Source of the DNA: Posidonia oceanica | Lineage: Eukaryota > Streptophyta > Magnoliopsida > Alismatales > Posidoniaceae | Length of the DNA stretch: 64,000 bases | Reading direction: 5' to 3' | Assembly: GCA_037176725.1 (NCBI GenBank) | Contig: JAZBRS010000035.1 | Span: 43,162,001-43,226,000, forward strand | In this document: positions 932 to 29,500 of the stretch, piece by piece | Layout of the letters: each line of letters starts with the position of its first letter | How positions within the stretch are numbered: the stretch's first letter is position 1 | The notes under the pieces: model-generated | Databases searched by the model: none | Told to the model about the DNA's origin: nothing | What the model saw: only the letters and a program-made list of their open reading frames with translations | Made by a program: the position numbers and the translations under genes

Positions 932-938
932 TATAAAG
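932..938 (+). promoter_or_regulatory. Candidate TATA box in E1 5' LTR
   Basis: TATAAAG lies at the sharp change from GC-rich to AT-rich sequence and is repeated at 22457-22463 in the 3' LTR. It would place U3 upstream and R/U5 downstream. The position is not clearly conserved in the E4 or solo LTR, so this is only a candidate. No transcription start is visible. Confidence 0.25.
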
Positions 939-3082: not shown

Positions 3083-3180
3083 TCCCTGCGTATGCGAGCG
3101 TAAGCCTAGAAAGACCGATTCTCGGGCGTGTCGGGGGTGCCTAACACCTTCCCCGCGCGTAACAGGAGTCCTTGCCCTGT
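3083..3180 (+). promoter_or_regulatory. LTR block conserved in all families of the window (E1 5' copy)
   Basis: The block runs from the GCGTATGCGAGCG phrase through GGGGGTGCCTAACACC to GTAACAGGAGTCC. It is recognisable in the E1 3' LTR (24608-24710), the E4 LTR (51308-51412), the solo LTR (54711-54820, minus) and the E2 LTR (36629-36709, minus), although most of these LTRs are otherwise hard to align. GGTG and CACC around CCTAA can pair. It lies about 300 bp from the LTR 3' end, probably in R or U5, so an RNA-level role (polyadenylation, dimerisation or packaging) is my inference. Confidence 0.5.
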
Positions 3181-3350
3181 CTTCTGGCCCGCAATGACCG
3201 TACTACCCTTATCCTAGGCTAGAGTCATCTCATTTGCATTTGCTTGCATTTGTTTTCCTTTGCATTGCTTTGCTTTGCATTTATTGCTCGGTTTTGCGCA
3301 TTAATTCACGCATTACCCCGGTTTTCCTCGTCTTCCGTTAATAGACTTGG

Positions 3351-3650
3351 TGGCGACTCTGATTTGTCTTATCTTTCCTTTTTCTCCTCGATTTTAAGTA
3401 TTTTCGAGTTGAGCCTCTTTCTCGGATCCAATCGCCGCTAAATCAGCGAGCCTGATTCCGATCGGGATAGCTACAGTGGCGACTCTGCTGGGGATTAGAC
3501 TAGACTCCGGCTTTCGTTCCCAGCTTTTCCGCTCGCCTGTTTTGCAGCTTTGTCTGCCTTGTGTGCCTTCTTTGCCTGTTTTGCTCGCCTTTCTGTGCAA
3601 ACCCCTAGCAAGTCGCTTCGTGGCTACTCTGCTTAGGTTCTCGCACCTCT
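3351..3650 (+). repeat. Tandem PBS-like repeats around the E1 LTR/internal junction
   Basis: TGGCGACTCTG occurs at 3351 inside the LTR, the full PBS at 3477, and a decayed copy TGGCTACTCTGCT at 3621. Spacings are 126 and 144 bp. The sequence before the third copy (AGTCGCTTCG) matches the sequence before the second and third copies in E4. See the separate findings. Confidence 0.8.
3477..3494 (+). promoter_or_regulatory. Primer binding site (PBS) of E1
   Basis: TGGCGACTCTGCTGGGGA starts one base after the LTR end. It is complementary to a tRNA 3' end carrying CCA. Tat/Ogre elements are known to use tRNA-Arg, and this sequence fits that pattern; I cannot check it against a tRNA set. Confidence 0.88.
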
Positions 3651-9185: not shown

Positions 9186-9191
9186 CAGTCA
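9183..9191 (+). promoter_or_regulatory. In-frame TAG between gag-pro and pol with a readthrough-type context
   Basis: The stop is followed by CAG TCA, which fits the CAR-YYA context of tobamovirus-type leaky UAG codons. The next frame is in phase, so readthrough would give Gag-Pol. Against this, E2 has a sense codon (CGT, Arg) at the aligned position, with the following SWQ-PM residues conserved, so the stop could be a private mutation of E1. Confidence 0.45.
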
Positions 9192-9206
9192 TCATGGCAA
9201 GACCCT

Positions 9207-12200
9207 ATGGCGTTAGAAGCTACGCTCTCTCAGTTACGGCCCGATACAAAAGGCCAACTGAGCACCACATTCTCCAGGCCCTTGAGCCCTCCAAAGAGCA
9301 CCCCTGCTTACTCTCCGACAGTGACCCTAGAAGCTTATTCATCAGTAGCACCGCTGGCCTGTCTATTTGGGCCTTCTACATCTGAACTGCCATCAGCGGA
9401 CGCGCCTGTGAACCAGATCATGCAGACTCCAAGGGCAGCGATCCATCTTGCAGCCGGGCCAGTGCCGCAGGCCCCCGGCGCCTACTACGTCGACTCCCCC
9501 TCAGACGAAGAAGAAGGAGTGGCGATAGAAGCCCAGGTCGATTCCTGGATGTCCGACTTAGAGTTACTTTATCAAGAACAACTCAAGTCAATAGCAGAAG
9601 ACCTGGCAGACCATCAAGCTGCAGAAAGGAAAGGAAAAGCCGTAGTTACGGATCCTCCTCTGCAAGAGGACCATGCTTCTATCATGTTCCTAGAAGACTC
9701 AGCAGCGCCGGACTCCCCTAGACCAGATGAGCTCATCACTCTTCAACCAGAAGGCGGGTCTAGGTGGTTTGTGCAACCCATGCCTCACCTGAGCAATGCA
9801 TCAAGCGGCAGTGACCAGATCAGCCGCCAGTCTGGCATATCCTCCACGAGCACACTAGAAGACCCAGAGGGGGGAGCATCAGCAGTAGATGCAGCAGCAG
9901 CAGAGCAGAATGCCTCAGCAGCCTCAGCAGCACAGTCGGCAGAGCAGTCAGCAGTATCAGCAGCAGAGTCAGTTGAGCCCTCAGTAAAATCAGTAGAGCA
10001 CTCAGCAGAGTCAGTCAGGCCAGAGAGAGCAGCAGAAGGAGTTGCTGGGACGGAGGTCGCGCACCGAGGCTACAAGAATACTCGAGTAAGCGTGACCATC
10101 CTGAAGCGTCACCAGGGCCAAGCAGCGGAACACATACACTCTTTCAACATCACAAGCCCGTCCTTCAAGAAAGAGATCCTCTCAGAACTTGTTGCTTATG
10201 GAGAAGAGGATGATACGGGCACAGACGAGACTGACGAACCTTTGCCCGAGTTCCGGCCCTATGACGACGACCCAGAAGGCCCCAACCTCCATGTCGAAGA
10301 AGAAACGGAGGTTGTCAACATTGGCACAGCTAAGGAAGTCAGAGAAGTTTGCATCAGTGCCCAGCTGTCCGCCCAGGCTCGAGCTGAATTCATCGCATTC
10401 CTGAAAGAATATGCGGATGTCTTCGCCTGGAGTTATGAAGATATGATCGGCCTTGACATAGAGATAGTGGTGCACAATCTGCCCTTAAATCAGGATGCCA
10501 AGCCAGTAAAGCAGAAGCTAAGAAAATGGCGACCGCAGTGGCTGCTCATGATCAAAGAAGAGATAATGAAGCAGCTTGGAGTCAACTTTCTGAAGGTCGT
10601 TCTTTATCCTGAATGGCTGGCAAACATTGTACCTATGCCCAAGAAAGATGGCCGAATCCGAATCTGCATCGACTATAGGGACCTGAACAAGGCGAGTCCC
10701 AAGGACGACTTTCCATTGCCCCACATTGACGTCCTAGTCGACAATACAGCGGGCCACAAGATGCTCTCCTTCATGGACGGCTTTTCTGGATACAATCAGA
10801 TCAAAATGGCAGAAGAGGACATGGAAAAGACTTCATTCATCACCCCTTGGGGAGTCTTCTGCTACCAAGTCATGCCGTTCGGCCTGAAGAATGCTGGTGC
10901 AACCTATCAGAGGGCCATGACTGCGCTATTCCATGACCTCATGCACCAAGAAGTGGAGGTCTATGTAGACGATATGATTGCCAAAACCAAAGAGCCCGAG
11001 GATCATCTTGCCTGTCTCAGAAAGCTCTTTGACCGTCTACGGAAGTACAAGCTGCGCCTGAATCCCAAGAAGTGCGTATTCGGGGTATCTTCTGGCAAAT
11101 TGCTTGGCTACATTGTTAGCCAAAGGGGGATTGAGGTAGACCCGTTGAAAGCGCAAGCCATCGTGGACATGCCACCCCCTAGAACTGAAAAAGAAGTCAG
11201 AAGTCTGCTTGGGCGTTTACAATATATCAGTCGCTTCATTGCACAGCTTACGCCCATTTGTGAACCCATTTTCAAGCTCTTGAGGAAGAATGCGCAGATT
11301 CACTGGAGCGAGGAGTGTCAGGCTGCATTTGCCAAGATCAAGCAGCTGTTGATCAAGCCTCCTGTCCTGGTCCCGCCTACGCCGGGGAGACCTTTGCTTC
11401 TCTACCTTCTTACCACGCAGCATTCCATGGGCGCCGTCCTGGGCCAACATGACGAATCTGGTAGGAAGGAGCGTGCCATCTACTACCTGAGCAAGAAGTT
11501 CAATGAATGCGAAGCCAGGTACAGTACACTAGAGAAGACTTGCTTGTCACTTGTCTGGGCTGCACAGAAGCTGAGGCACTACCTGATGGCATACCCAGTG
11601 CAGCTCTTATGCCGGCATGATCCTATCAAGTTCCTCTTTCAGAAGCCGGCCATGGTGGGCAGATGTGCTAAGTGGCAGGTGCTATTGTCCCAGTACGATA
11701 TCACCTTCGTCACACAGAAGTCCATGAAGGGTCAAGCAATGGCAGACCATCTTGCTGACCTCCCTCTTCCTGAATACCAGCCCCTCCAGACGCAGTTTCC
11801 TGATGAAGACATTCTCTTTGCAATGGAGGACTCTGAGCAGAAAGATCCTGAAGAGCAAGAGGAATGGCAGCTCTACTTTGATGGTGCAGTCAACAAGAAG
11901 GGCCAAGGTGTAGGCGCAGTGCTGACCACGCCCCAAGGACAGATGACTCCTTTCGCAAGGAAGCAGACTTTCACCTGCACAAACAACGAAGCAGAATACG
12001 AAGCATGCATCCTGGGGTTGAAAGTCACCCTCGAGCATGAGGCGCAGAAGCTGCATGTGCACGGCGATGCCATGCTGGTAATTTCTCAAGTGAACGACGA
12101 ATGGAAGACAAAAGATCCCAAGCTTGTGCCGTATCACGAACACCTGCTGAGGCTGATGAAAGAGTTTGAGAGCATCCGCTTCACATACCTGAACAGAGCA

Positions 12201-12620
12201 AAGAACGCGTATGCAGACGCACTAGCAACTCTGGCATCCTGGCTCACCATTTCAGAAGACAGCACTGTGGATGTATCAGTCACTCGCATTGAACAGCCTG
12301 CATACTGCATGAGCATAGAAGAAGCGGATCCTGCAGAGGGGCAGCCCTGGTATCAAGACATAAAATCTTTCCTGGAGTCTGGTAGCTTTCCCCCTGATAC
12401 CACGGCAGCGGACAAGAGAACTCTGGCGCGTCTGGCGTCAAAGTATGTGCTAGGGGCCGGACAGCTGTACAGAAGGTCATACAATCAGATGCTACTGCGC
12501 TGCCTGAACAAATCGGAGGCTGACACACTGATGCTTCAAGTGCATGCGGGGACCTGTGGCCCGCACATGAACGGCGTCCTCCTAGCCAAGAAGATCATGT
12601 TGCAAGGTTATTTCTGGTAG
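9207..12620 (+). CDS. pol: E1 Pol: reverse transcriptase, RNase H and archaeal-type RNase H
   Basis: 1137 aa from ATG 9207. The frame is open from 9186 and is the same frame as gag. Residues about 1-430 are a low-complexity, acidic and Ala/Ser/Glu-rich linker (CAG-rich DNA at 9880-10030). RT spans about 432-690 with YVDD at 586-589. The first RNase H follows (LEKTC and HDPIK present), but the usual first Asp is missing (LYLLTTQ), as known for Tat elements. A second, archaeal-type RNase H has D892 (YFDGA), E930 (EAEYEA), D954 (HGDAM) and D1004 (YADALA), so it is probably the active one. The H-H pair of the integrase zinc finger starts near residue 1113. The frame stops at TAG 12618-12620, inside the integrase N-terminus. 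Confidence 0.93.
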   Translation: MALEATLSQLRPDTKGQLSTTFSRPLSPPKSTPAYSPTVTLEAYSSVAPLACLFGPSTSELPSADAPVNQIMQTPRAAIHLAAGPVPQAPGAYYVDSPSDEEEGVAIEAQVDSWMSDLELLYQEQLKSIAEDLADHQAAERKGKAVVTDPPLQEDHASIMFLEDSAAPDSPRPDELITLQPEGGSRWFVQPMPHLSNASSGSDQISRQSGISSTSTLEDPEGGASAVDAAAAEQNASAASAAQSAEQSAVSAAESVEPSVKSVEHSAESVRPERAAEGVAGTEVAHRGYKNTRVSVTILKRHQGQAAEHIHSFNITSPSFKKEILSELVAYGEEDDTGTDETDEPLPEFRPYDDDPEGPNLHVEEETEVVNIGTAKEVREVCISAQLSAQARAEFIAFLKEYADVFAWSYEDMIGLDIEIVVHNLPLNQDAKPVKQKLRKWRPQWLLMIKEEIMKQLGVNFLKVVLYPEWLANIVPMPKKDGRIRICIDYRDLNKASPKDDFPLPHIDVLVDNTAGHKMLSFMDGFSGYNQIKMAEEDMEKTSFITPWGVFCYQVMPFGLKNAGATYQRAMTALFHDLMHQEVEVYVDDMIAKTKEPEDHLACLRKLFDRLRKYKLRLNPKKCVFGVSSGKLLGYIVSQRGIEVDPLKAQAIVDMPPPRTEKEVRSLLGRLQYISRFIAQLTPICEPIFKLLRKNAQIHWSEECQAAFAKIKQLLIKPPVLVPPTPGRPLLLYLLTTQHSMGAVLGQHDESGRKERAIYYLSKKFNECEARYSTLEKTCLSLVWAAQKLRHYLMAYPVQLLCRHDPIKFLFQKPAMVGRCAKWQVLLSQYDITFVTQKSMKGQAMADHLADLPLPEYQPLQTQFPDEDILFAMEDSEQKDPEEQEEWQLYFDGAVNKKGQGVGAVLTTPQGQMTPFARKQTFTCTNNEAEYEACILGLKVTLEHEAQKLHVHGDAMLVISQVNDEWKTKDPKLVPYHEHLLRLMKEFESIRFTYLNRAKNAYADALATLASWLTISEDSTVDVSVTRIEQPAYCMSIEEADPAEGQPWYQDIKSFLESGSFPPDTTAADKRTLARLASKYVLGAGQLYRRSYNQMLLRCLNKSEADTLMLQVHAGTCGPHMNGVLLAKKIMLQGYFW

Positions 12621-12623
12621 ACC

Positions 12624-13589
12624 ATGGAAGCCGACTGCTGCCGGTTCGTGCGTAGATGCCACAACTGTCAAATCCATGGTAACTTCATCAAGGCCCCTCC
12701 ACATCAGTTGCACAACATGTCTTCGCCATGGCCTTTCTCCACCTGGGGGATCGATGTCATCGGCGCCATCCACCCTGCTGCTTCGAATGGTCATCGTTAC
12801 ATTCTGGTAGCGATCGATTACTTTACCAAGTGGGTGGAAGCAGCCTCTTACAGGACAGTCACCGCTGCGGTAACAGAAAGATTTATCAGAAACAATATCG
12901 TTGCCCGATATGGGGTCCCGCACTCTGTCATCTCTGATAACGGCTCAAACTTCATTGCCAAAAGGATCGAAGAATACCTGCAAAGTCTCAAGATCAAGCA
13001 CCATCGATCCTCGCCCTATCGGCCTCAGATGAACGGAGCAGTGGAATCTGCAAACAAGAACATTGTCAAGATCCTGAAGAAAATGGCAGAAATCCACAAG
13101 GATTGGCACGATAAGCTCCTGTACGCGCTCTGGGCGTACAGGACATCAATCCGGACCTCTACAGGAGCCACCCCGTACTCTCTGGTATACGGCATGGAAG
13201 CGGTGTTACCTGTTGAAGTGGAGATCCCCTCCCTGCGGATCCTGCGGGAAGCTGAGTTGGAAGAAGCAGAATGGGTCGAAGACCGCTGCGTCCAACTGAA
13301 CTTGATTGATGAGCGCAGATTGCAAGCCATGCACAACGCTCACTACTATCAGAAGCGAATGGCCAGAGCATTCGTGAAGAAGGTCCAGCCCAGAAGCTTC
13401 CAGCCAGGGGACCTTGTCTTACGCGCCATTCATTTGCCTGACGGTCGAGGGAAATTCCGACCCAATTGGCGTGGCCCCTTTGTGGTCAAGCAGATCTTTT
13501 CGGGAGGCACTGTAACTCTTGAGGATATGGACCAGGTCGAGCAGTCTGAGCCCGTCAACCTCTGCTATCTGAAGAAGTACTATCAGTAG
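12624..13589 (+). CDS. pol: E1 integrase (C-terminal part of Pol, separated by one TAG)
   Basis: 321 aa from the first ATG, in the same frame as the preceding ORF with only TAG ACC between. It holds the Cys pair C12/C15 of the HHCC finger and the DDE core D44 (WGIDVIG), D105 (SDNGSN) and E141 (AVESAN); the last spacing is the canonical 35 residues. The C-terminal domain has PGDLVL and a GPY/F-type NWRGPF, ending in KKYYQ. E2 reads Leu (TTG) where E1 has TAG, and E3 reads Pro, so the split is a nonsense change. An initiation at M1 would lack the His pair, so isolated expression would probably not be functional. Confidence 0.9.
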   Translation: MEADCCRFVRRCHNCQIHGNFIKAPPHQLHNMSSPWPFSTWGIDVIGAIHPAASNGHRYILVAIDYFTKWVEAASYRTVTAAVTERFIRNNIVARYGVPHSVISDNGSNFIAKRIEEYLQSLKIKHHRSSPYRPQMNGAVESANKNIVKILKKMAEIHKDWHDKLLYALWAYRTSIRTSTGATPYSLVYGMEAVLPVEVEIPSLRILREAELEEAEWVEDRCVQLNLIDERRLQAMHNAHYYQKRMARAFVKKVQPRSFQPGDLVLRAIHLPDGRGKFRPNWRGPFVVKQIFSGGTVTLEDMDQVEQSEPVNLCYLKKYYQ

Positions 13590-15060
13590 CCGAAAGCGGC
13601 CCCGTTGCAGATGCCCTTCTCCCACTTGCATCTACATTCTCACCTTCTTACTTTATCTCTATTCAAATCATCATCGTCATCCTTTCAGCTCTTGCACCCT
13701 TTCTTTTCAAATCATCATCGTCATCCTCTCAAACATCGCATCTTTTGCCCGGTGATGACAACCGGAAGTGCTTGCCTACTCTGGAAAGAGTCACCCTGCC
13801 TCACCTGGCACTACTTAGATGTCTTAGCGAGTGAGGGAGCCACCACCAACGAAGACAGGCGAAATGCCTAATCTCGCAAGGACATACACCTCTGAGGGAG
13901 AAAAAATGTTAGGTTGTGAGCTTGAAAAAAGTGAGAATAGACATCTAGGTTTGGGCACGTCCAAGGAACAGAAGACAAAGACAGAAGCCGGCCCTAGAGA
14001 TAGGGGTGTGCATTCTAACCCTACTCCTTCTACCCATCACACAGCAGACCCAAAGCCTAAATCCATTACAATTCAAGCACCCTTCTTTTGCCACCAGAAT
14101 GGGGATAGCAAAAGCCTGGAAAAAAAGAGGAAAAAGATCAAGCAAAAAAAAGAAAAAAAGAGATAGAACAAAAACAAAAACAAAAAAGGAGAAAAGCAAG
14201 CAAAACAAAAAAAAAGAAAAAGAAAAAGGCAAAGGTAGCCCAAAAAACACAGGCACCGTTATCCCCCATACTTTACTAGAGATCCCCAGCATGTCAAGCC
14301 TGGAAAAGGGGTCTACCACATCCTCCCAAGAGCAAACACATACCTTCTCCTAGCTAGGGGCAAAGAAAGACTGCATACCTATGAGGGAGAAACCTTTCAA
14401 AAAAAGAGAGCTGAAAGAATAGGTGTAGGTCCTGAGAGTGCAGCCAGTAGCCTGTCCTCACCACATCACCACCTGTATAATGCCAACAACCTGTTCCGGA
14501 GCGCCACCAATAAGCCGAGAGTCTGAGTAGGGCCCAGTGAGTCAAAGACCACTCCCTTCCTCTGCAGCAGGCACCAAAGCACTCCGTATGCTGAGGGCAC
14601 CCAAGCATACCCATCCACCCAAGCATACCCATCCATTCAAACACACTTATTCATCCAATAATATTCATCCTCATAAGCATATCACTAGCATCTTGCATTC
14701 ATGCATCTTCCTTCTTTCCTTTCCCCTTCCGCCAATCTCTCCGCTCTGCAACACGCTCAGGTCCTGAGGCAGTACTTCTCCCCAGCAGAGGCACATCGAC
14801 GACACTCAAGCTGCGCTGGTCCAGATTTCCTACCAACCCTCGCCCTCGTGTCCGCAAGGCTGCTGCAGAATCCCTCTGCTTATCAGTGCTTAATTGCTGT
14901 GTTCTGTTATCACTTTGCCTAGATGCATATTGGAACTACATTTTCAGTCTCAGTTTCTGCTTGTTGTCAGTGATTACATACCTGCGAGATCTGACTGATT
15001 ATTGATAGCAGGTACCTTCAAGCCTTGCAGTAATCAGCCTGTCTTCTGCAATCAAGTATA
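13590..15060 (+). other. E1 noncoding spacer between integrase and extra ORF
   Basis: No gene seen. A 50-bp direct repeat around TCATCATCGTCATCC lies at about 13660-13735. An A-rich tract dominated by AAAAG and AAAAC lies at about 14118-14235. The part at about 14535-14600 (CACTCCGTATGCTGAGGGC) is shared with E2 (25330-25390, inverted). This region may hold the leader or promoter of the extra ORF, but I see no clear signal. Confidence 0.6.
14118..14235 (+). repeat. A-rich tract downstream of integrase (E1)
   Basis: Long runs of A with G or C interruptions. Equivalent tracts lie in E2 (25742-25806, T-rich on plus) and E3 (about 39515-39610, T-rich on plus), each 0.5-0.9 kb past the integrase stop in element orientation. 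Confidence 0.6.
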
Positions 15061-16104
15061 ATGGGTTTTCCTACTCTGCTGACTCTCGCACATTGCTCGG
15101 AAACCCTACAAGAATGGATCAGCAGGCTCACCCAACAGGACTGCGAAAAGTTGCGCCTGTGGGGTATACCAACCAAGCTGCTAAAGGCTGTTGATGTGGA
15201 GGTCAGCCGCCACCTTGTGTGTGCCGCCGCGAGATTCTGGAAGCCGGTGCACCATGTCTTCCGTTTCAACAAGACTAAGCTGACACCTACACTAGAAGAG
15301 GTGCGTCGAGTCTGCGGCTTTTCAAAGATCTTGGGACCGCCTGTTTTCATGAGGCGCGACGGATATCTCCGGGTCCTGAACCAACTGACTGGGCTCTCCA
15401 CTCAAGACTGCCAACAGAAGCTAATCTGCACCAGTGGACCAGAGCCCATGCTTCGCCTTGCACACTTTGATGATATCTTGAACAAGCGCGCTGACCTCGG
15501 AGATGAGCTGTGGCTCCGAGGATTCGTCATCTGCTTTCTGGGCGAACTAATCTTTACTCATGGCCGACTGACGGTGGCCATCGAGGTCGCAGAGATTGCA
15601 TTAGCTGTGGTGACCCAGCACATAGATCTGGCACCTGTTGTCTTGGCAGAGACTTATCGCGGGCTGGATCGCATTTCTCATCGCTGCCGCCACTTCCACG
15701 GTTGCGGAGCACTTATACAAGTCTGGCTGACCGCGCACTTAGAGATGGACCTTCTGCGCCCTCAAGTGCATGCTTTCGAAGCTTACTGTAGCAGCGCCCG
15801 TACCAGAGCAGACAAGAGCGTCAAAGACGAGTACGAGAGGTTGTCAGCACTGACTGACGACGCTGTGATCTGGCGCATCGTTCCCTCTGCAGCAGAGCCA
15901 TTCACAATCTTCTTCAGCGCGCGTGACACGCGGCTGATCGTTCTTCCAGGCTTCACAGCAGGCGTAGAGTACCATCCAATCAGGGTCATGTGCCAGTTCG
16001 GCTTCCAGCAGGGCGCCTTCATTGACAGTACAGCGCTCGAGCTTCTACAGACTTATCCTCTCAGCACCACTGCCCCAACCAAGAAGCTTGCTAGTCTGAT
16101 GTAG
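15061..16104 (+). CDS. E1 extra ORF: plant mobile domain-like / DUF7745-like protein
   Basis: 347 aa, sense strand, about 1.5 kb after the integrase stop. Recognisable features: EWISRLTQQD and KLRLWGIP near the N-terminus, FRFNKTKLTPTLEEVRRVCG at about 88-107, and a hydrophobic helical middle (about 150-200). These match my memory of the plant-mobile-domain/DUF7745 family found in plants and in Gypsy and Mutator elements; a profile search is needed to confirm. Extra ORFs between pol and the 3' LTR are known in the Tat lineage; their role is unknown. The frame remains open after the TAG at 16102 for 52 more codons to TAG 16261, with a basic tail (KQPKKARVD), so the ancestral protein was probably about 400 aa. 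The stop most likely came from TGG. Confidence 0.8.
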   Translation: MGFPTLLTLAHCSETLQEWISRLTQQDCEKLRLWGIPTKLLKAVDVEVSRHLVCAAARFWKPVHHVFRFNKTKLTPTLEEVRRVCGFSKILGPPVFMRRDGYLRVLNQLTGLSTQDCQQKLICTSGPEPMLRLAHFDDILNKRADLGDELWLRGFVICFLGELIFTHGRLTVAIEVAEIALAVVTQHIDLAPVVLAETYRGLDRISHRCRHFHGCGALIQVWLTAHLEMDLLRPQVHAFEAYCSSARTRADKSVKDEYERLSALTDDAVIWRIVPSAAEPFTIFFSARDTRLIVLPGFTAGVEYHPIRVMCQFGFQQGAFIDSTALELLQTYPLSTTAPTKKLASLM

Positions 16105-16263: not shown

Positions 16264-16870
16264 GCCCTTGTGCGACCATCATGTGGTCTTCTTTCAAATT
16301 GTGCTGTACATTTCTGGCCTGCCGCAGGCATCGTACTTATCAAGATCATATCAATGAAAACTGTTTCTGCTTTCTGTTTGCACATCAAGACTCTTTGCTG
16401 CATTGCATATCATCATCATCATTATCTTGGGCCCTCTAATCAGACTTGCAGACATCCCAACGCGGCGAAGTCCTCAGCACCCAATCCGGGGCCCAGAGCA
16501 TCTACGGGCCCGCGACACCAAGCTCCGCCGTCCGGCGTCCCCAGCTGGTCATCCCCAGCTGGATCATTACCCTTGCGGGCTGGCACCCCAAACTGCCCAG
16601 CGAAAGGTCTGTCAACCTGTCATCCTCCTCAGCTGTTCATCCTCAGCTGAGTCCCTTGCGGGCTGGCACCCCAAACTGCTCGGCGATGGGTTCGTCAACC
16701 TATCATTCATCCACTCGCTTATCTATCTTTGCATCTTGATGCCAGGGGCGCATCGGCCATCCCCTGGTATCATCCTGATGCCAGGGGCGCATCGGCCATC
16801 CCCTAGTATCATCCTGATACCAGGGGCATCTTTTGGCTGCCCTGTGGTATCATCCCCAATTGGTCGCCCC
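16264..16870 (+). other. E1 3' region, first part: degenerate repeats and stem-loops
   Basis: No gene. From about 16550 the phrase GCGGGCTGGCACCCCAAACT recurs with variation. Inverted pairs appear: GATACCA 16816-16822 with TGGTATC 16845-16851. The GATGCCAGGGG / CCCCTGGTATC phrases at 16740-16810 pair likewise. Confidence 0.6.
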
Positions 16871-16871
16871 T

Positions 16872-17219
16872 AGCTGGATCATTATCTCTGCGGGCTGGCA
16901 CCCCAAACTACTCGGCGAAAGGTCCGTCAACCTGACACTCTTCTCGGCTGGTCATCCCCAGTCGAGTCCCCAGTTGGTCGCCCCCAGCTGGATCATTATC
17001 TTTGCGGGCTGGCACCCCAAACTGCTCGGCGAAAGGTCCGTCAACCTGACACTCTTCTCGGCTGGTCATCCCCAGTCGAGTCCCCAGTTGGTCGCCCCCA
17101 GCTGGATCATTATCTCTGCGGGCTGGCACCCTAAACTGCTCAGCGAAAGGTCCGTCAACCTGACACTCTTCTCGACTGGTCATCCCCAGCTGAGTCCCTA
17201 GCTGATCGCCCTCAGCTGA
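16872..17219 (+). repeat. 114-bp tandem repeat, about 3 copies
   Basis: AGCTGGATCATTATC starts at 16872, 16986 and 17100, giving a period of exactly 114 bp, with a partial fourth unit. Copies differ at few positions. The period is a multiple of three, which explains the open frames 16833-17201 (plus) and 16908-17243 (minus); I do not consider these genes. Hypervariable tandem repeats in the 3' UTR are known for Tat/Ogre elements. Confidence 0.9.
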
Positions 17220-17254
17220 GTCCCTTGCGGGCTGGTACCCCAAACTACTCGTCT

Positions 17255-17275
17255 GACAAGCACGACACTCTTGTC
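17255..17275 (+). repeat. Stem-loop GACAAG / CTTGTC
   Basis: Perfect 6-bp arms at 17255-17260 and 17270-17275 with a 9-nt loop. It has the same geometry as the stem-loop array further on. Confidence 0.55.
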
Positions 17276-17450
17276 ATCACTCTCTGCTTTCGATGCCATG
17301 GACGCGCTGGCCAACCCCTGGTGTCATCCCGACACCAGGGGCATCTTTTGATCGCCCCGTGGTATCATTCTTTCCCTCTTTCCCCTATGACGTTCCTGGC
17401 ATCATGGGATGATTTCTTCTCATCATTCCCTTATCCCTTCTTTACCGGCC

Positions 17451-17725
17451 GATAAGTCCGATATCTTATCATTCTCATCATTCCCTTATCCCTTCTTTGC
17501 CGGCCGATAAGTCCGATATCTTATCATTCTCATCATGATCTCATCCCCCTCTTTAGCTTAATTTCTCATCATGATCTCACCCCCCTCTTTAGCTTTAACT
17601 TCTCATCATGATCTCATCCCCCTCTTTAGCTTAATTTCTCATCATGATCTCATCCCCCTCTTTAGATCAACTTCTCATCATTATCTCATCCCCTCTTTGC
17701 CGGCCGATAAGTTCGATATCTTATC
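17451..17725 (+). repeat. Three GATAAG / CTTATC stem-loops and a 36-bp tandem repeat
   Basis: Stem-loops with 6-bp arms and 8-nt loops lie at 17451-17470, 17506-17525 and 17706-17725, each preceded by GCCG or GGCC. Between them CATCATGATCTCA recurs at 17531, 17567, 17604, 17640 and 17676, a period of 36-37 bp. Confidence 0.8.
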
Positions 17726-17778
17726 ATTCTCATCATGATCTTGCCCCCTCTTATCAATCAATCAATCACTCTCAGGCT

Positions 17779-18770
17779 GATATTCCTAAACTATCATCAA
17801 TCAATCACTCGTGCTAGGCTGATATCCGAAACTATCTCAGGCTGATATTCCTAAACTATCTTCTGGTCGATCCATGGTCGGCCCGCAGTTGTGTTATACG
17901 GCTGACATCCAGTAACTGTCCCTCGTAATTGCACTTTTCCAGTTGATAGGTCTGTAAACTATCCACCGGTTGACAGGACCGTAAACTGTCGCTCTAGTTG
18001 ATAGGTCTGTAAACTATCGCGTGCAATTACGTTATACGGTTGACATCCAGTAACTGTCCCTTGCAATTGCGGTTTCCAGTTGATAGGACTGTAAACTATC
18101 CTCCAGTTGATAGGTTTGTAAACTATCCACCGGTTGACAGGACCGTAAACTGTCGTTAGGCTGATACTCCTAAACTATCACCAGCAATTGCATTATACGG
18201 CTGATATCCAGTAACTATCCCCCATCATTGCGCGTTTCCAGTTGATAGGTCTGTAAACTATCCGCCGGTTGACAGGACCGTAAACTGTCGCTCCAGTTGA
18301 TAAGTCTGTAAACTATCCGCCAGTTGGTAGGACTGTAAACTACCACGCGCAATCATGTTATACGGCTGACATCCAGTAACTGTCCCTCGCAATGCCGTTT
18401 CCAGTTGATAGGACTGTAAACTATCCTCCAGTTGATAGGTCTGTAAACTATCCGCCGGTTGACAGGACCGTAAACTGTCGCTCCAGATGATAGACTGTAA
18501 ACTATCCGGCATTGCGTTATACGGCTGATATCCAGTAACTATCCCTCATGGTTTGTGGTTTCCAGTTGATAGGTCTGTAAACTATCCGCCAGTTGATAGG
18601 TCTGTAAACTATCCACCAGTTGATAGGACTGTAAACTATCCCACAACCATGTTATACGGCTGATATCCAGTAACTATCACTCACAACTGCCTCCGGTTGA
18701 CAGGACCGTAAACTGTCACTCCCGGTTGATAGGACCGTAAACTATCTGGACGATAAGCCCATCACCTTAT
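17779..18770 (+). repeat. Array of about 30 covarying stem-loops
   Basis: Each unit has a short left arm, a 7-9 nt loop usually ending GTAAA or GTAAC, and a complementary right arm. Examples: GATAG 17945-17949 with CTATC 17959-17963; GACAG 17972-17976 with CTGTC 17986-17990; GGTAG 18326-18330 with CTACC 18340-18344. In all 30 units I counted, a T or C at arm position 3 is matched by A or G on the other side. Adjacent units are mostly 27 bp apart. A higher-order unit marked by TTATACGG recurs at 17894, 18032, 18193, 18358, 18517 and 18652. The minus-strand frame 18258-18512 is a by-product of the 27-bp period. Confidence 0.92.
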
Positions 18771-19234
18771 CATTTTTTTTCTCCTTTTCGGCGCGGCCTT
18801 GTCCCAGGAAGACGAAGTCACGCACCCCCTTCCTGCGATAGGAGAGTTGGCCTCTCTCCCCTCGCACCCTTCTTTCCTGCTAGCTTGCTCCCCGGGCGGG
18901 GACCAGCTGCACCCTGCTTTCCTTTGCTTTGTCGCACAAGTCTGGCCTCCCTGCCAGATATTCGCGCCACATCGCACCTTTTTATCATTTTTCCTGCATC
19001 ATCTCTGCACTTTCTTAGATAGCACTGCATATTACTCCAGTATCACTTGCACAGCATCAGCATTTTCTTCTAGCTGCACTAACTTTTATACTAACTCTTG
19101 CATTGCACTCGCATCAGCATGCATACACACAGCACAGCATCCATCTGCACTGGCATCTTGCATTGCGGCAATGGGCTACGATCTTCGGTGCATCCGTCGA
19201 ATAAGTAGCTCACGCCCATAGCAACCCGCTGCTC
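18771..19234 (+). other. E1 3' region between stem-loop array and PPT
   Basis: No gene or clear repeat. Contains GC-rich sequence with CTCCCCGGGCGG, then GCATC/GCACT-rich sequence. The frames 18799-19221 and 18762-18977 show no domain. Confidence 0.5.
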
Positions 19235-19333
19235 CTGCCGGTCAGATGGGGTGTCTTGTCAACCCTGAGCAGCGGCTGCGCTCCGCTTGCCCTCGCTCAG
19301 GGAGGGGCATCTGTTGACACCCCATCTTGGCAG
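19235..19333 (+). repeat. Large inverted repeat that brackets the PPT and the start of the 3' LTR
   Basis: AGATGGGGTGTC at 19244-19255 pairs perfectly with GACACCCCATCT at 19316-19327, the LTR start. CTGCC 19235-19239 pairs with GGCAG 19329-19333. Inside, CCTGAGC 19264-19270 pairs with GCTCAGG 19295-19301 and AGCGG 19271-19275 with CCGCT 19283-19287. The PPT falls in the unpaired stretch 19302-19312. Confidence 0.8.
19300..19311 (+). promoter_or_regulatory. Polypurine tract (PPT) of E1
   Basis: GGGAGGGGCATC directly precedes TGTTGACACC, the LTR start. It is the primer for plus-strand synthesis. Confidence 0.85.
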
Positions 19334-22300
19334 GCCCGGACCCTTGGAGCCCTCCCGGTGATTGCTGGTTCAAACCCCAACCAAACCCTAACCCTAACCC
19401 TCCTCTTTACCCTTCAAAATCAGCCTATCTTGGCCCAAACCTTTACCCCCCTTCCCAACCTCAAAACCTAACCAAAAACCATAGGAAAATCCACCACTAT
19501 CCACCCAACAAACCTACCCAAGAACTTAGAAATTTCCAAACCTAACCCATTCCCAAAAACCCTAGAAAACCTAGGTGAAACTACCCTTTTTCTACACCTT
19601 GAAACCCCTCCAAAACCTCCTTAGAATCAAACCAAAACTTCAGAACCAAGACTTCAAACCCTAGACTACCCACTCACCAATTCTCACCCCATTCCAAGAC
19701 CATTAAGACCTTCTTTCACCCAAATTATCCTTTTCTCTCTTCGGGATTATCATTTTCTCTCTCCTCTCTCTCTCCTGATTATCATCTCTCTTTTCATCCC
19801 TTTCTTATCCTTTTTCTGGTCTGGCTGTGGGCCCCCTCTGTGCTTCTATCCTTCCTCTATCTTATCCCTATTTTTACTTTATTTTTAACACTTTTTCTGA
19901 ATTTTAAAAAATCGTTTTCCTCCAACCTATCCCTTTTCCTCTTATCTCCCTCTTTTTTCCATTTCTTTCCTCCTTCTCTTTTCCTTTTCTCCCTTTTGCA
20001 AAAATCCACAAAAACCCATAAAAATCTGTAAAACCTCAAAACATAAAATAAACAAATCAGAACCCTAAGAAAAACAATTAAAAAACATTAAACAAGCAAT
20101 TAAAAACTTAAACTTAACTAAATCAAGCTAAAAAGAAAACCAAACATGCAAACTAAAAAATGCAAAACAAATCAAAAGAAAACACTGAAAAATCAAGGAA
20201 AAAACTAAAATGAGATCTAAACCCAGCAAAAGTAAAAACCCCACTAAAAGAATTAAAAAACAAACCCTAAAAAGAAGAATTAAAAATCAAACACTAAAAC
20301 AAGTAATTAAAGAAGGCAAAAGACTTAACCTAATAAACATAAGAAAAACAAGTTAAAAACTTAATTAAAAAAGAAAATAAAAACACATCTGAAAGACTTA
20401 AAAACATCCTATCAAACCAGAAAAATCCAACTAAAAACTTCAAGAAAAATCAACAAATAAAAATTAAAACATAACTTAAAAGACTTAAGAAGGAAAAAAC
20501 CCTAAGAAGACTAAAACTTAAAAACCTAAAACCAACCCTGATTAATACGAAATTAAATCCTAAAAAATCTTAATCAATATCCGAAGTGTCCCACAAAGGA
20601 AACATAATTTTAAAATAATTTAAAAAAGGGTTTAACAAACACTTAATCAAGAGAAAACTAATTAAAACCCTAATTAAGCCCAAAACACATTAATCAACTC
20701 AAAATGACCATTAAAAATTCTAATTAAAATCCTAATCTATAGCACAACCCTTCTAATATTTTTATTTATTTTTAGTTCCTTTTTTACTAATTTTATTTCC
20801 CCATCCTACCCTCTCTTTCTTTCTTATTTCCCTTCTTTCTTTCTTTCTTTTCCTTACTGGGCCCGTCAGCCCGTTTCTTCTTTTTCTTTATTTCTTTTTC
20901 TTCTCGGCCCGCAGCACAGTCCGGCCCTTCTCCACCCTTCTTCTTCCCCACCTCCTTCAGCTGATTTCTTCACCATTTTCTCCCACGAACAGCCAGCTGC
21001 AGTATTCCCTCCTCCGGTTTGAATTCAAGCTTCAATCCTTTCAATCTACAGCAGCCCACCGCTCTCCTTCCTCTCTGCGGCTTTTCCGGAGCCGGTCGCC
21101 CCGTCCCCTCCGCTGCAGTAACCGCCGGCCGAGTTTGAATTCTCAGCTCGCGCCCAGCAGCAGCAGCTCCTCATTCATAAGCCTCCCGTCCTCCCTTCAA
21201 TCCAGAGTGTCAGACAGAGCCGGAGTGAGAGCAATCCAGAGCGAACCAGAGAGTGGAGAGCCATCAGACCAGAATTCCGGCAATTTCCTCCACCTGTGCG
21301 CCCCTCCTCCTTCTCCTCTTCACCTCCCAATTTCCAGAGAGAAGAGAGCAGTGAGAGTAGAGCTTGAGAGAGCCTTGGCATCTCGGAGAGAGACCTGGAT
21401 CCCAGAGCAATCCCCACCTGAAGCCTTCCTCTTTCTCCCCAGAAATCTTCAGAAAAACTTCCTTCACCTTTTCCGGTAAACCAAGCCCCGTCCAAGCCTT
21501 CATCCTTCTCCCAATTCCTCCCCCAACTTCACCCAACAGCCAGCCTTCATCCCCCTATTTCCCATTGCCTTTTCACCACCTAAACTACTCTGAAACACCT
21601 CCTAACCCCACCTGAAGCCACCTTCAAACCCAACACAACCCACCAGACAATTCCCCTCACCACAATCCACAGAATCCTTCCAAACTACACCCAGCTACCC
21701 ACCGAACCCCCACCTTTCCAGAGCCCCGACCTTCAGCCCTCTCTCCCACCACCGGCAGAGAACTCCACAACAAACACCTTGCTTCGCTCCAGACCAGAAA
21801 TCAACCCAGCCTCCTAACTTCCTCCACACCTTCCAGAAACCTTCTCCGAGCATCCAGAACGACTCCTCAGACCTCCAGCAATCTCCCGGAAGGCTCCATC
21901 CGAGCCGACGAGCAGCAGACACCCCCCCGGCCTCCGACTGTCACCTGTGAACCCAAATCGACCGAATCTCCACCTGAGCTGCGAAGCTTGCGTCCGGTCG
22001 ATCAGGAAGCTCCGGAGGAACATTCTGAAGCCACTCCATCCCTCGCGAGCAGCCGACAGCACCTGCAGCGACTGGACGAACGCCGCCGGCCACTTCTGGA
22101 ACCACTGACGTCGGGAGGACATCTCAGACGCGGACTCAGGTACATTTTGCTTCCCTTAGCTTCCTCTTCCTTCCCTCTTGCTTCTCCAGCCTATAGATTA
22201 GGATTTCCGGTCTTCCTGCTCCGTCCCCGACTCACCGGTCAGTTCTCCTTCTCCAGCGCCGGCTGCTCTTCCCCCGGACACTCCGATCAACAGAACGCCG

Positions 22301-24999
22301 CTCCGACTCGCTCCGGAGCTCTAGACGATCGCCGCCAGCATCCTCCGTCAAGCAGCGCCTCACCAGCTCCCCCTTGTCGGCGGTCACGAGTACTGCCGGC
22401 GTTCTGCTATAGTGCTCGTCGACCGCCGACTAGCACTGTTCCTTTATTTTCTTGTTTATAAAGTTTTAGATGTAAATATTGCATGTTTAGCTTAAGTTTT
22501 TCAATTATTGCATTCCAGTCCTTCTGTCATTTAGTTTGCTTAGTTTTAAATTAAATACTATGCCAAATTGCTGTTTTTATTTCCATTTTTCAGTATTTGC
22601 TTTTCAGTCCTTCTACTGTGCGTTTCAGTTATAATATTTTGTAGTTTAGCCCCTCTGCTTTTGATTATTGCATATAGGTCCTACAGTAGATCAGTTCATT
22701 TAATTGCATTCATTTTACCATACTGCATTGCATTCTAGGTCCCTACATGTTTCTGATTTTGCATATAGGTCCATGCACTGTAGGAACTTAGCTTTTATTT
22801 TCTTATTTTGCATATTGCATTGCATTTCTTTTCCTCTGATTTTGCATATTTGCACCTAGGTCCATTTTAAATGGACAGTGGCTATTATGCATGTATTTTG
22901 GCTTATTGTATTGCATTTCTGACCCTGTTTTTTCCAAAAATCACACACCAGTCCTCAGTCTGTGTTTTCAGAGCATGTTTTCCATATAAAATTGCATATT
23001 TGACCCCTGCATGATTTAAAAATCACACATAGGTCCTTGCATCTTTCAAAAACCATGTAAAAAGACCATTTTGCCCCTAACTTGCATCCTAGCTCCTATG
23101 CTTACCAAATTGCATGCAGACCCTCCACCAGTATTCTCAGACTCCCCAGAACCCTGTTTTCTGGAAAATTTGCATTTTAGACCCCAGTTTTTCCAAAATT
23201 GCATTCTGACCTCTTTCTGCTTTCAAAACCTCTTTTAAAGCATACCCTCTTTTCAAAACAGCTTTCTGAGCCTAGTTTTTTGCAAAATGGACCCCTGTCC
23301 TCTCCTGTTTTTGAAATCCTTTCCTGTGGACCCCTGTTTTCTGGAAAATTTGCATTTTTAGCCCCTTTCTTTTTCAAAATGCTTTCTGAAATCTTGGCTT
23401 TTCCCAGTTTCTTCTCTTTGCTTTTTCTTGCTTTTGCACGCATCCTGCATCCATCTAGTCTTGCATTTTAGCATCTTCTTGCACACACTAAGCACCTTTA
23501 GCTCCCTTTCACTTGGGAGGACCTTTTGCACATCCCTAGGACCTCTTGAACACCTAGATCTGTTCTTCTCCCCTGTTCTGGCCCTTCTGCCTTGAAGCCG
23601 TGATATCTTCCAATCCGGCCGTTGGATCTTCTCAAGTAAGCTGCCCAGGCGACCGCAGCGAAGCGCCCTTCAGCATGGATCAGACAGATTTCAGATCAGG
23701 CTCCCGGATTTCCAGGTATGTCCCCCTGAACCCCTGCATTGCATTTGCATGCCATTTGCATAAGTTTTCCTCGTTTTGGCTTTCTATCTCTTTGAGCATG
23801 TAGAATAGGGCCTCCCCTTTCTACTTCTATCTCCAAATCCTCGTTTCGCGTATCCCTGTGTGTTTTGTGTTGAGTTTTCCTTGGATTTGCCACTTAATGT
23901 GACCTTCTTCCCCCTTTTCCACGATCCGATCGCATCGCGAGCTTTGGGCAGCGTGCGAGACACACCGTGGAACGGTTTAGCGGGAAACAGTCGCAAAGAG
24001 GTGGTAATCCCTCCGTTTGCACACTCTCCCCTCCGTAGGTCTTCACACCTACTCTGAGCGGTCCTAAACGACGTCTGTTCTTACACACACGTTGTTTTGC
24101 CTCCCCTTTGGCCTCTTCTGATCTTTTCTGCATTCTTGCATTCGCATGGCTTTTCTGAGGTTTTTGCTTCGCTGTTTTGGTACCGTTTCGCGTGCCTGCT
24201 CTCGCTTTTGCACCGTTTTGCGTGCCTCTTTGCTTTCTTGTCTCGTTTTGCATGCTGCCTTGCTTTCCTGCCTGTTTTGCGTGTCGGTTTTGTTCTTTTG
24301 CTCCGTTCCACGTGCCTTTCCTGTTTCTCGCCTTGTTTTGCGTGTTTTACGCCGTTTTCCCTTGCATGTCGATTGCATTGCATGGTTTTCTCGCTGTTTC
24401 GCTTTTTCACCTGCATTTGCATATAGGGCTGTGATGCTTATGGTCTGGAGTTCTCACGAGCTAGGTTTCGCCTAATTCGGAACACGGACAGCGTAGCTGA
24501 GCACTTAGAAAGCACGCTTACTTCCTTGCTTTGTTTCTTCCCACTTAGAGCACACCTTGAGCATTCATTTAGGCATTCATAGGCACATAGGCATTCAATC
24601 CTGCATTTCCCTGCGTATGCGAGCGTAAGCCTAGAAAGACCGATTCTCGGGCGTGTCGGGGGTGCCTAACACCTTCCCCGCGCGTAACAGGAGTCCTTGC
24701 CCTGTCTTCTGGCCCGTAATGACCGTACTGCCCTTATCCTAGGCTAGAGTCATCTCATTTGCATTTGCTTGCATTTGTTTTCCTTTGCATTGCTTTGCTT
24801 TGCATTTATTGCTTGGTTTGCGCATTAATTCACGCATTACCCCGGTTTTCCTCGTCTTCCGTTAATAGACTTGGTGGCGACTCTGATTTGTCTTATCTTT
24901 CCTTTTTCTCCTCGATTTTAAGCGTTTTCGAGTTGAGCCTCTTCCTCGGATCCAATCGCCGCTAAATCAGCGAGCCTGATTCCGATCGGGATCGCTACA
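19312..24999 (+). repeat. E1 3' LTR, complete, 5688 bp
   Basis: Starts TGTTGACACCCC and ends GCTACA, with the TG...CA ends of LTRs. Parts in order: CTAAACCC-rich sequence (19377-19700); pyrimidine-rich; A-rich with many TTAAAAAC phrases (about 20030-20720); GC-rich (about 20860-22440); T-rich with TTGCAT and AGGTCC (about 22465-23520); TTTTGCGTGCC phrases (about 24095-24420); conserved block (24608-24710); PBS-like half site near 24875. Three AACCCT units at 19377-19400 are too few and too degenerate for a telomere remnant. Open frames within have no recognisable domains. Confidence 0.95.
22465..23520 (+). repeat. Degenerate TTGCAT / AGGTCC repeats in the LTR
   Basis: Loose repeats of about 50-75 bp combining GCATATAGGTCC, TTTTGCATATTGCAT and A-runs. 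The same style occurs at 940-1980, in the E4 LTR at about 49430-50620 and, inverted, in the solo LTR at about 56500-57440. Spacing is irregular, so this is old, degraded repetition. Confidence 0.5.
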
Positions 25000-26525: not shown

Positions 26526-29500
26526 TCACTGATAGTACTTCTTGAGGTAGTACGAGTTGACCGAATCCGGCTGTTCAACCTGGTCCATGTCCTCAAGAAC
26601 TGTTGCACCACCCAAGAATGCTTGCTTAACCACCAAGGGGCTGTGCCAGTTGGGTCGGAATTTGCCTCGACCATCTGGTAAGTGAATGGCATGCAGAACA
26701 AGATCTCCTGGCTGGAAGCTTATAGGCTGAACTTTCTTTAGGTACGCTCTGGCCACCCGCTTATGGTAACAATGAGCGTTGTGCATAGCCTACAGCCTGT
26801 GCTCATCAATCAGATTCTGTTGGACGTAGCGGTCTTCGACCCATTCTGCCTCTTCTAGCTCAGCTTCTCATAGGATCCGTAGTGAGGGGATCTCCACTTC
26901 GACAGGCAGCACCGCCTCCATGCCGTACACCAGCGAGTACGGGGTGGCTCCTGTTGAGGTCCGGACTGATGTCCTGTACGCCCAAAGTGCGTACGGAAGC
27001 TTGTCATGCCAGTCCTTATGAGTTTCTACCATCTTCTTCATGATTTTGATAATGTTCTTGTTGGTAGACTCCACTGCTCCGTTCATCTATGGCCGATAGG
27101 GTGAGGACCTATGATGCTTGATGTTGAGGCTCTATAGGTATTCTTTGGTTCTCTTGGCAATGAAATTCGTGCCATTGTTAGAGATGATGGAGTGCGGGAC
27201 CCCATACCGGGCGACGATGTTGTTTCTGATAAACTTCTCTGTCGCCACGGCTATGACAGCTTTGTAAGAGGCATAGCTTCCACCCACTTAGTGAAGAGTC
27301 GATCGCCACCAGGATGAAGCGATGACCATTTGAAGCAGCAGGATGTATGGCGCCAATGACATCGATCCCCCAGGTGGAGAAAGGCCATGGCGATGACATG
27401 TTGTGTAGCTATTGTGGGGGAGCGCGAATGAAGTTACCATGTATCTGGTAGTTGTGGCATCTACACACAAACTGGCAGTAGTCTGCTTCCAAGGTTAACC
27501 AGAAATAGCCTTGGAGCATGATCTTCTTGGCCAGGAGGACGTCGTTCATATGCGGGCCGCAGGTCCTTGCATGTACTTGAAGCATCAGCGTGTCAGCCTC
27601 CGTCTTGTTCAGGCAGCGTAGGAGCATTTGGTTGTAGGATCTTCTGTATAACTTCCCTGCCCCTAACACATACTTCGACGCTAGACGTGCCAAAGTTCTC
27701 TTATCTGCTGCTGAGGTGTCGAGTGGGGGACTACCAGATTCCTGGAAAGCCTTGATGTCATGGTACCACGACTGTTCTCCTACTGGTTCTGCCTCCTCTA
27801 CACTCATGCAATGCGTAGGCTGTTTTATGCTGGTAACTGATACATCCACCGCACAGTCTTCAGGTATGCTGAGCCAGGACGCTAGGGTTGCCAATGCGTC
27901 TGCATATGCGTTCCTTGCTCTGTTCATGTACGTGAAGTGGATGCTCTCAAACTCTTCTATCAGCTTCAACAGGTGTTTGTGATATGGCACAAGCTTTGGA
28001 TCCTTTGTTCTCCAGTCGCCATTCACTTGAGAGATTACCAGCATGGCATCGCCATGCACATGCAGCTTCTGCGCCTTATGCTCGATGGTGACCTTCAATC
28101 CCAAGATGCACGCTTCATATTCTACTTCGTTGTTGGTGCATTTGAAAGTCAACTTCCTCGCAAAGGGAATCATCTGTCCTTGTGGCGTTGTCAGTACTAC
28201 GCCTACGCCTCGGCCCTTCTTTTTGACAGCACCATCAAAGTACAACTGCCACTGCTCTTGGTCCTCGGGGTCCTTCTTCTCAGAGTCCTCCATTGCAAAA
28301 AGGATGTCCTCGTCCGGGAACTGCGTCTGGAGAGGCTGGTACTCAAGCAGAGGAAAGTTAGCAAGATGATCTGCCATGGCTTGACCTTTCATGGACTTCT
28401 GCATGACGAAGGTGATGTCGTACTGAGACAACAACACTTGCCACTTGACACATCTGCCCACCATTGCTGGCTTCTGGAAGATGAATTTGATGGGGCCATG
28501 CCAGCATAAGAGCTGAACTAGGTACGCCATCATATAATGCCTTAGTTTCTATGCTGCCCAAACAAGAGATAAGCAGGTCTTCTCTATAGTGCTATACCTG
28601 GCTTCACATTCATTGAACTTCTTGCTCAGGTAATAAATGGCGCTCTCCTTTCTACCCGATTCATCATGTTGGCCCAAGATGGTGTCTATGGAATGCTACG
28701 TGGTAGAAAGGTAGAGAAGTAGAGGTCTCCCTCGCGTGGGAGGAATCAAAACAGGAGGCTTGATTAGTAGCTGCTTGATTTTGTCAAATGCAGCCTGGCA
28801 CTCCTCGCTCCAGCTGATCTGTGCATTCTTCTTTAGGAGCTTGAATAAGGGTTCGCAGATGGGCGTTAGCTGCACAATGAATCGACTGATATACTGTAAT
28901 CGCCCCAGCAGGCCTTGGACCTCCTTTTCAATTCTAGGGGGTGGCATCTCCACGATGGCTTTTACCTTGCTCGGGTCCACCTCAATCCCCCTCTGGCTGA
29001 CAATGTATCCTAGGAGTTTCTCGGATGACACCTCGGACACGCATTTGCTGGGGTTAAGCCGCAGTTTGTACTTCCTCAAGCTGTCAAAGAGCTTCCTCAG
29101 ACATGCGAGGTGATCTTCGGGCTCTTTGGTCTTGGCAATCATGTCGTCCACGTAAACCTCAACTTCTTGGTGCATGAGGTTGTGGAATAGTGCTGTCATC
29201 GCCCTCAGATAGGTTGCGCCAGCGTTCTTGAGCCCAAACGGCATAACTTGGTAGCAGAAGACTCCCCAGGGTGTGATGAATGAAGTCTTTTCCATGTCTT
29301 CTTCTGCCATTTTGATTTGGTTATAGTCAGAGAAGCTGTCCATAAAGGAGAGCATCTTGTGGCCTGCAGTATTGTCGACTAGTACGTCAATGTGGGGCAA
29401 TGGGAAATCGTCTTTGGTACTCGCCTTGTTCAGGTCCCTATAGTCGATGCACATGCGAACTCAGCCATCTTTCTTAGGCACTGGCACAACATTGGCAAGC

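Follow-up and report, generated by a model that had tools for sequence, protein, structure and literature searches.

Tandem repeats in the 3' untranslated regions (UTRs) of Tat and Ogre retrotransposons are already known, and include the minisatellites of GmOgre/Gmr9, the repeats of Retand, and Ogre arrays that seed satellites (PMC3305785, PMC7004042, PMC11963269). The repeats described here belong to the same lineage and resemble them in being short, family-specific and tandemly arranged, and in occupying the stretch that separates the coding region from the 3' LTR. The accessible portions of these three papers do not mention hairpin, stem or secondary structure; the present repeats are able to fold, show covariation, and are gathered into groups by outer stems. 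Among the open-licence papers listed, judged by title and opening of the abstract, none was recognised as describing a 3' UTR of a plant LTR retrotransposon with hairpins that covary or with stems that close them. The window analysed is a stretch of 64,000 nucleotides of Posidonia oceanica DNA, in which an earlier note had described about 30 covarying stem-loops in a retrotransposon 3' UTR. The observation is larger than first described, with outer stems, two-hairpin relatives and genome-wide abundance now added to it. On balance, we favour the reading that the sense transcript of an Ogre-type element carries the array as a folded, repeated RNA domain, kept by selection during replication.

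The host retrotransposon

The array resides in a Ty3/gypsy element, downstream of an ORF that encodes a plant mobile domain and upstream of the 3' LTR. The main parts of this element are as follows.

1 to 3475, plus strand: 3' part of the 5' LTR, the 3475 bases inside the window being 98.5% identical to 21526-24999
4641 to 9185, plus strand: gag-protease open frame with G-patch (Retrotrans_gag, G-patch; Asp_protease_2 weak, below its cut-off)
9186 to 12620, plus strand: reverse transcriptase, RNase H and additional RNase H (aRH), in this order (RVT_1, RT_RNaseH, RVT_3)
12621 to 13589, plus strand: integrase (rve)
15034 to 16104, plus strand: extra sense ORF with plant mobile domain (PF10536, 1.9e-19, domain match from 15064)
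19312 to 24999, plus strand: 3' LTR (TG...CA) of 5.7 kb, with a purine-rich tract directly before it

The 3' LTR has a partner inside the window for 21526-24999, and its start was placed at the TG after the purine-rich tract. By the domain criteria in the accessible part of PMC6317226, the element fits the Ogre clade of Tat. Its domain order (RVT_1, RT_RNaseH, RVT_3, rve) puts the aRH between RNase H and integrase, a criterion that the same source gives as common to Ogre and Retand; the extra ORF with PF10536 is typical of Ogre and not required, having been found in 57% of Ogre elements (PMC6317226); and tandem repeats between the last ORF and the 3' LTR are a further feature of Ogre/Tat. The Retand clade was considered and rejected on the length of the LTR, which is 5.7 kb here and 315-1,194 bp in the recent Retand elements surveyed in PMC11963269, a source that, in its accessible part, also reports an antisense TRP28 ORF in 97% of Retand clusters.

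The genome searched comprises 2.96 Gb in 80 contigs. With the integrase as query, 124 scored places (window included), of 96,633 candidates, were 97-100% identical. The gag-pol frame of the focal copy (4641-13589) is broken into three successive open stretches, and relatives exist with one undivided frame of about 3,012 residues. Elsewhere in the window, a 30-bp tandem array at 55098-55805, the unit of which holds GGCAC-GCAAAACG-GTGCC, a possible hairpin, sits in a region whose opposite strand matches the focal LTR.

An array of hairpins with matching arms

The units were extracted by anchors on the loop and on the shape of the arms, and complementarity was not demanded. Two hairpin types were obtained, HP1 of the form GAYA - mostly TCCAGTAAC - TRTC with a 4-bp stem, and HP2 of the form GAYAG - G.CYGTAAA - CTRTC with a 5-bp stem.

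17779, 17821, 17844, 17904, 18042, 18163, 18203, 18368, 18527, 18662, plus strand: starts of the ten HP1 hairpins (anchor extraction)
17945, 17972, 18000, 18082, 18109, 18136, 18244, 18271, 18299, 18326, plus strand: starts of the first ten of 19 HP2 hairpins
18407, 18434, 18461, 18489, 18568, 18595, 18622, 18699, 18728, plus strand: starts of the last nine HP2 hairpins
18752 to 18771, plus strand: terminal hairpin GATAAG/CTTATC
17451 to 17725, plus strand: three hairpins GATAAG/CTTATC (17451, 17506, 17706)

Thus, the roughly 30 stem-loops of the earlier note are borne out as 29 hairpins at 17779-18746 and a thirtieth of another type at 18752, and their placement in a 3' UTR was right. The variable arms match in all 29 array units, 20 of which are GAT/ATC, eight GAC/GTC and one GGT/ACC, with no mixed unit; the earlier counts agree except for GAT/ATC, which had been put at 21, and the thirtieth unit of that list was probably the different hairpin at 18752-18771. 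The near-constancy of the loops also holds, with two variants of the HP2 loop and TCCAGTAAC in most of HP1. In the HP2 unit at 18299 the fifth pair is broken (A.C), both in the window copy and in one of 27 other copies.

The number of hairpins is far above chance. The array contains 20 non-overlapping perfect 5-bp stems with loops of 8-9 nt. Dinucleotide shuffles (500) contained 1.95 such stems on average and 6 at most, and 61 other tiles of the window 2.15 on average and 7 at most. When the 3' arms were dealt at random to the 29 units, which are duplicates of one another, all of them matched with p 1.1e-8; when the shuffle was confined to classes with identical loops, the fractions were 1/20, 1/6 and 1/4 for the array and 3/66 for a relative of the element, termed relative B. 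Within a single loop class, moreover, the two arms switch type together, with three units of each type for TCCAGTAAC, five and one for GACCGTAAA, and three and one for GACTGTAAA.

Two-hairpin dyads and related elements

Upstream of the array, in a relative at 62-64 kb and in other families, the motif takes a two-hairpin form, a 44-nt dyad.

16578 to 17275, plus strand: six two-hairpin dyads (starts 16578, 16661, 16893, 17007, 17121, 17230)

The dyad reads GCUG-xyA-loop-Uy'x'-bulge-CGGC, followed directly by GAUAGGU-CCGUYA-ACCUAUC. In the dyads at 16893, 17007 and 17121, which are 114-bp units, HP2 is broken (GAAAGGT/ACCTGAC), and in that at 16578 it has one mismatch. Among 157 dyads, collected with the loci of focal-array and integrase copies left out, one HP2 class has a constant T.C mismatch (GATGAGT/ACTCCTC, 43/157). 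A set of 88 dyads, drawn from twelve tandem loci after filtering on register and number of mismatches, has G-C at pair 5 of HP1 in 66, A-T in 20 and other in 2. In the dyads the HP1 loop has the sequence CCCTAA(A)C, and telomere-like CCCTAA repeats are found at 19376-19402, near the start of the 3' LTR. Tandem dyads of several relatives (L091, L092, L093 and L096, and at about 61866 in the window) come after a splice-donor-like GGTAAG and an A-rich stretch, and to judge from these motifs may lie in or near an intron. A third hairpin class, with ACCAGGGG... and ...CCCCTGGT-like arms (for example TGATGCCAGGGG/CCCCTGGTATCA), is present at 16741-16840, 17296-17370 and 63620-63660, both in the focal 3' UTR and in that of the element at 62-64 kb; by eye, both of its arms appear to be altered.

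Relative B is about 82% identical to the focal element in pol, and its pol lies in the window at 26528-36064 on the minus strand. Beyond the focal 5' LTR lies a similar putative 3' UTR, L097, and the focal element may have been inserted into relative B. From its position, we infer that L097 (minus strand) is the 3' UTR of relative B. Its 17 HP1 units comprise 7 GATA/TATC, 8 GATG/CATC, 1 GATG/TATC and 1 AATG/CATC; a third stem position has thus been altered on both sides, and the wobble intermediate, GATG/TATC, is itself present.

Abundance and arm matching across the genome

Patterns that fixed the loop and left the arms free retrieved 373,585 genome matches for the focal HP2, 129,613 for the focal HP1 and 10,600 for the dyad, and a further pattern, from which pairs 4 and 5 of the dyad HP2 were tallied, retrieved 27,067; the reversed-pattern control of each gave 0. 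Tallies were made by eye on the first 100 matches listed for each pattern, all on contigs C1 and C2; being copies related to one another, and drawn from one or two contigs, these do not amount to independent trials. The earlier note had regarded frequent mismatched arms elsewhere in the family as evidence against maintenance of the hairpin. Among the matches listed, the arms agreed in 100/100 HP1 units (of 129,613), in all 42 HP2 units given in letters among the 100 listed (of 373,585), and in 96/100 dyads (of 10,600). The HP2 pattern of the dyad had 0 matches in viral contigs, and the Rfam covariance models had 0 matches in 16400-19400 at E up to 1.

Outer stems and flank-loop pairing

On folding of the array, the spacers paired with one another and formed five outer stems that enclose groups of hairpins, the arms of each stem being the spacer before the first HP2 and the spacer after the last HP2 of the module.

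17924 to 18031, plus strand: module 1, outer stem 17924-17934 with 18021-18031, 11 bp, three HP2, duplex -16.0 kcal/mol
18062 to 18192, plus strand: module 2, outer stem 18062-18073 with 18180-18192, three HP2 and one HP1, -15.8 kcal/mol
18223 to 18357, plus strand: module 3, outer stem 18223-18235 with 18345-18357, four HP2, -15.0 kcal/mol
18388 to 18516, plus strand: module 4, outer stem 18388-18397 with 18507-18516, 10 bp, four HP2, -17.7 kcal/mol
18547 to 18651, plus strand: module 5, outer stem 18547-18558 with 18641-18651, one bulge, three HP2, -14.2 kcal/mol

The five stems are five different sequences, each of which pairs in register across at least 82 nt. In-register duplexes had energies of -14.2 to -17.7 kcal/mol, against -0.4 to -11.9 kcal/mol across modules, and the real assignment of arms was the best of the 120 that are possible for five modules. 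In L103, 331 bases of an array with another module spacing, two modules are closed by stems of -14.4 and -13.2 kcal/mol, one of them of yet another sequence, and the out-of-register duplexes have -9.9 and -4.9 kcal/mol. When the seven modules were pooled, two of 5040 assignments equalled the real one, itself included; the second was a swap of two stems with a common GCAATTGC, in module 2 and in one L103 module, the same two that gave the off-register exceptions of -16.4 and -15.4. It is to be noted that GCAATTGC is a self-complementary 8-mer, so that a tandem copy of it would pair immediately; modules 3, 4 and 5 have diverged from it with their pairing retained.

The 5' flank of a hairpin also pairs often with its loop, as in CGG/CCG, CAG/CTG, TTAGG/CCTAA, TTTGG/CCAAA, TAGG/CCTA, TTCAG/CTGAA and TTCGG/CCGAA. 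A helix of this kind overlaps the hairpin, and the element could therefore form an H-type pseudoknot or switch between two hairpins; H-type pseudoknots are found in the 3' UTRs of plant RNA viruses. Of 34 distinct units, 24 had at least three flank-loop pairs, where shuffles gave 16.0 (reached by 0/3000); the counts were 15/17 for focal units (1/3000) and 6/7 for L103 (96/3000). Among the matches listed, the free flank and loop positions of 42 HP2 units gave 38 Watson-Crick, 1 G.U and 3 A.C combinations. However, L097 had 5/13 against 5.0 in shuffles (2111/3000), at least four pairs were not in excess (8 against 5.7 in the pool, 422/3000; 1 against 1.9 in the focal array), the TCCAGTAAC loop class is without the helix, and the signal was weak in the dyads (p 0.05 and 0.62 for two pairs; tree-aware E 102 or more). 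The flank-loop helix is thus suggestive, and as a specific form of the RNA reading, in which it would be part of the element, it is rather doubtful.

Covariation and the copying of units

A covariation test of the kind proposed for these hairpins was performed with an R-scape-like, tree-aware null (FastTree) on 155 of the 157 dyads, two having been dropped for length or similarity, and bore out one of 14 dyad pairs: HP1 6-19 was clearly significant (E about 0) and the other 13 were not clearly so. Three of the latter, 7-18 (E 2), 28-41 (E 6.6) and 29-40 (E 9.4), were within the top eight of all column pairs, and an unpaired combination, 7-19, had E 0.017 in this sample, which is dominated by a few clades. 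The tree of all columns gave one double event for HP1 pair 5, and HP2 underwent several wobble-mediated changes; a second tree, built from unpaired columns, contained many more double changes, to which no weight was given as it had only 16 columns. Twenty-three distinct dyads (25 were chosen from the 157 and two dropped as chance regex hits) showed an excess over shuffles in three of five measures and none in two. Their stem cells pair in 93.8%, against 89.1% in shuffles (reached by 0/500) and 25.8-47.8% in slid controls, but pairs changed on both sides numbered 4 against 3.0 (130/500) and further pair types 15 against 15.0. Changes in 29 C-type copies (85-92% identical) were mostly one-sided, with few double changes. 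Energies of folding were mildly unusual on both strands (MFE z-score -2.19 sense and -2.75 antisense, 20 shuffles each) and, being similar, give no strand preference. For the focal HP1 taken alone and for the HP1 of relative B, the hairpin was not the minimum-energy fold.

These results bear upon an explanation by block amplification only, namely that a small number of ancestral units, already matched, underwent tandem copying and spread with the element too recently for their arms to diverge. The units are indeed of few types, the tree-aware null leaves a single clearly significant pair and the all-column tree one double event for HP1 pair 5. Within the array, the earlier caveat that few ancestral types may have been copied as blocks applies in part, as GAT, GAC and GGT need only about three or four double changes. 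Amplification alone, however, does not account for five different outer stems, for GATG/CATC in L097, for the wobble-mediated changes in HP2, or for an excess of G.U over A.C that is seen in the dyads listed and is absent among the focal copies, and we consider it unlikely. Maintenance of the hairpin, as first proposed, is instead supported by the matched arms across the genome, by GATG/CATC in L097, and by outer stems that differ and yet pair.

Wobble pairs and variants among copies

The wobble bias on the sense strand is a direct observation, as are the sequence, its pairing and its copy number. Among the matches listed for the dyad HP2, pair 3 was T-A in 33, U.G in 67 and C.A in 0 of 100 (of 14,315); pair 5 was G-C in 54, G.U in 20, A-U in 23 and A.C in 3 of 100, and pair 4 had 21 G.U and 0 A.C in the same 100 (of 27,067). 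Pairs 4 and 5 together thus had 41 G.U against 3 A.C in 200 cells on the sense strand, in related rows where one wobble lineage may count many times. The classes of HP2 pairs shift through A-U, G.U and G-C; at HP1 pair 6 there was no wobble preference (four events from C-G to C.A, two to U.G).

Variants were also compared among 28 focal copies, out of 40 array places scored. Their majority sequence is Watson-Crick at 191/191 chosen pairs, of which the hairpin pairs alone constitute a test, the outer ones having been chosen as complementary. Stem variants fell at 15 G.U sites, 15 A.C sites and 10 others, mostly in one or two copies, and a compensated double change was found in none of the 28. 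With CpG excluded, variants present in at least three copies occupied 1/354 arm sites against 14/548 others (p 0.007). Private variants were also rarer in arms (29/354 against 79/548, p 0.005), a deficit that is neither predicted by neutral decay nor explained by selection. Strand-symmetric decay predicts equal numbers of G.U and A.C, as found among the focal copies; that equality, together with the large excess of G.U over A.C among transmitted changes, favours selection on sense RNA over the copying of arms in DNA.

By the latter we mean a mutational mechanism, such as template switching within the hairpin during reverse transcription or repair, that would match the arms with no selection. 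It would suit arms that match, units of which few are broken, and repeats that sit in a reverse-transcribed element. It should, however, erase wobbles, bulges and mismatches, and yet U.G persists in HP2 pair 3, one unpaired base in the HP1 stem is retained across the 23 aligned dyads, and T.C recurs in one class of dyad HP2; moreover, the focal copies lack a compensated double change, and the outer arms are far apart. Such copying is quite improbable, and the choice between selection and arm correction that had been left open leans to RNA on the transmitted wobbles. That the hairpins are instead dyad-symmetric DNA sites for a dimeric protein, a host factor or the plant-mobile-domain protein, would suit the inverted repeats, their constant spacing and the extra ORF of the element, but is very improbable, as a protein that reads fixed half-sites would hardly tolerate GAT, GAC, GGT and GATG arms around unchanging loops, duplex DNA would not be expected to show a G.U bias on one strand, and the outer stems are too long and too variable.

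A proposed model of the array as a folded RNA

Selection on the fold of the sense-strand RNA is, judging by pairing and wobble, the likely main cause of the pattern. Each module would be a multi-branched RNA, in which an outer stem surrounds short hairpins, three or four in number, that vary little in their loops; the loop-constant HP1 would stand between modules. Conservation of the loops with covariation of the stems suggests recognition of stem-held loops, many times over. We infer that the array is transcribed, folds in the cell, is bound by protein and has a function, the most plausible of which would be the handling of full-length element RNA (Gag capture, export, stability) through multivalent protein binding. 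That the job is specifically packaging or export of genomic RNA is a tentative suggestion. Equally tentatively, the array may represent a new class of repeated cis-acting RNA domain, consisting of multi-branched modules with their own covarying closing stems that hold loop-constant hairpins, these being pseudoknots or two-state switches; with several hundred thousand units in one genome, it might serve as a multivalent landing array for Gag or a host RNA-binding protein.

Comparison with known systems

Satellite DNA is known to be seeded by the 3' UTR repeats of Tat elements, and a structural reason for the repeats is absent from the accessible portions of PMC3305785, PMC7004042 and PMC11963269. 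Should they prove to be a folded RNA required by the element, the question of why Ogre-type elements keep such arrays becomes testable, and hundreds of thousands of copies in one genome constitute a natural library for measuring which base pairs matter and on which strand. Retroviral export elements of the constitutive transport element type are structured and lie upstream of the 3' LTR, after the last gene; the focal array resembles them in this position and in its potential to fold. In the 3' UTR of tobacco mosaic virus (TMV), eEF1A binds two pseudoknot regions of the upstream pseudoknot domain (PMC11599109, accessible part). The focal array differs from it in belonging to a retrotransposon, in having about 30 units, and in that its pseudoknots are only suggested. 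In both, a plant RNA would carry folded units downstream of its coding region, and the TMV domain may be considered the nearest functional parallel in plants, by likeness rather than by kinship.
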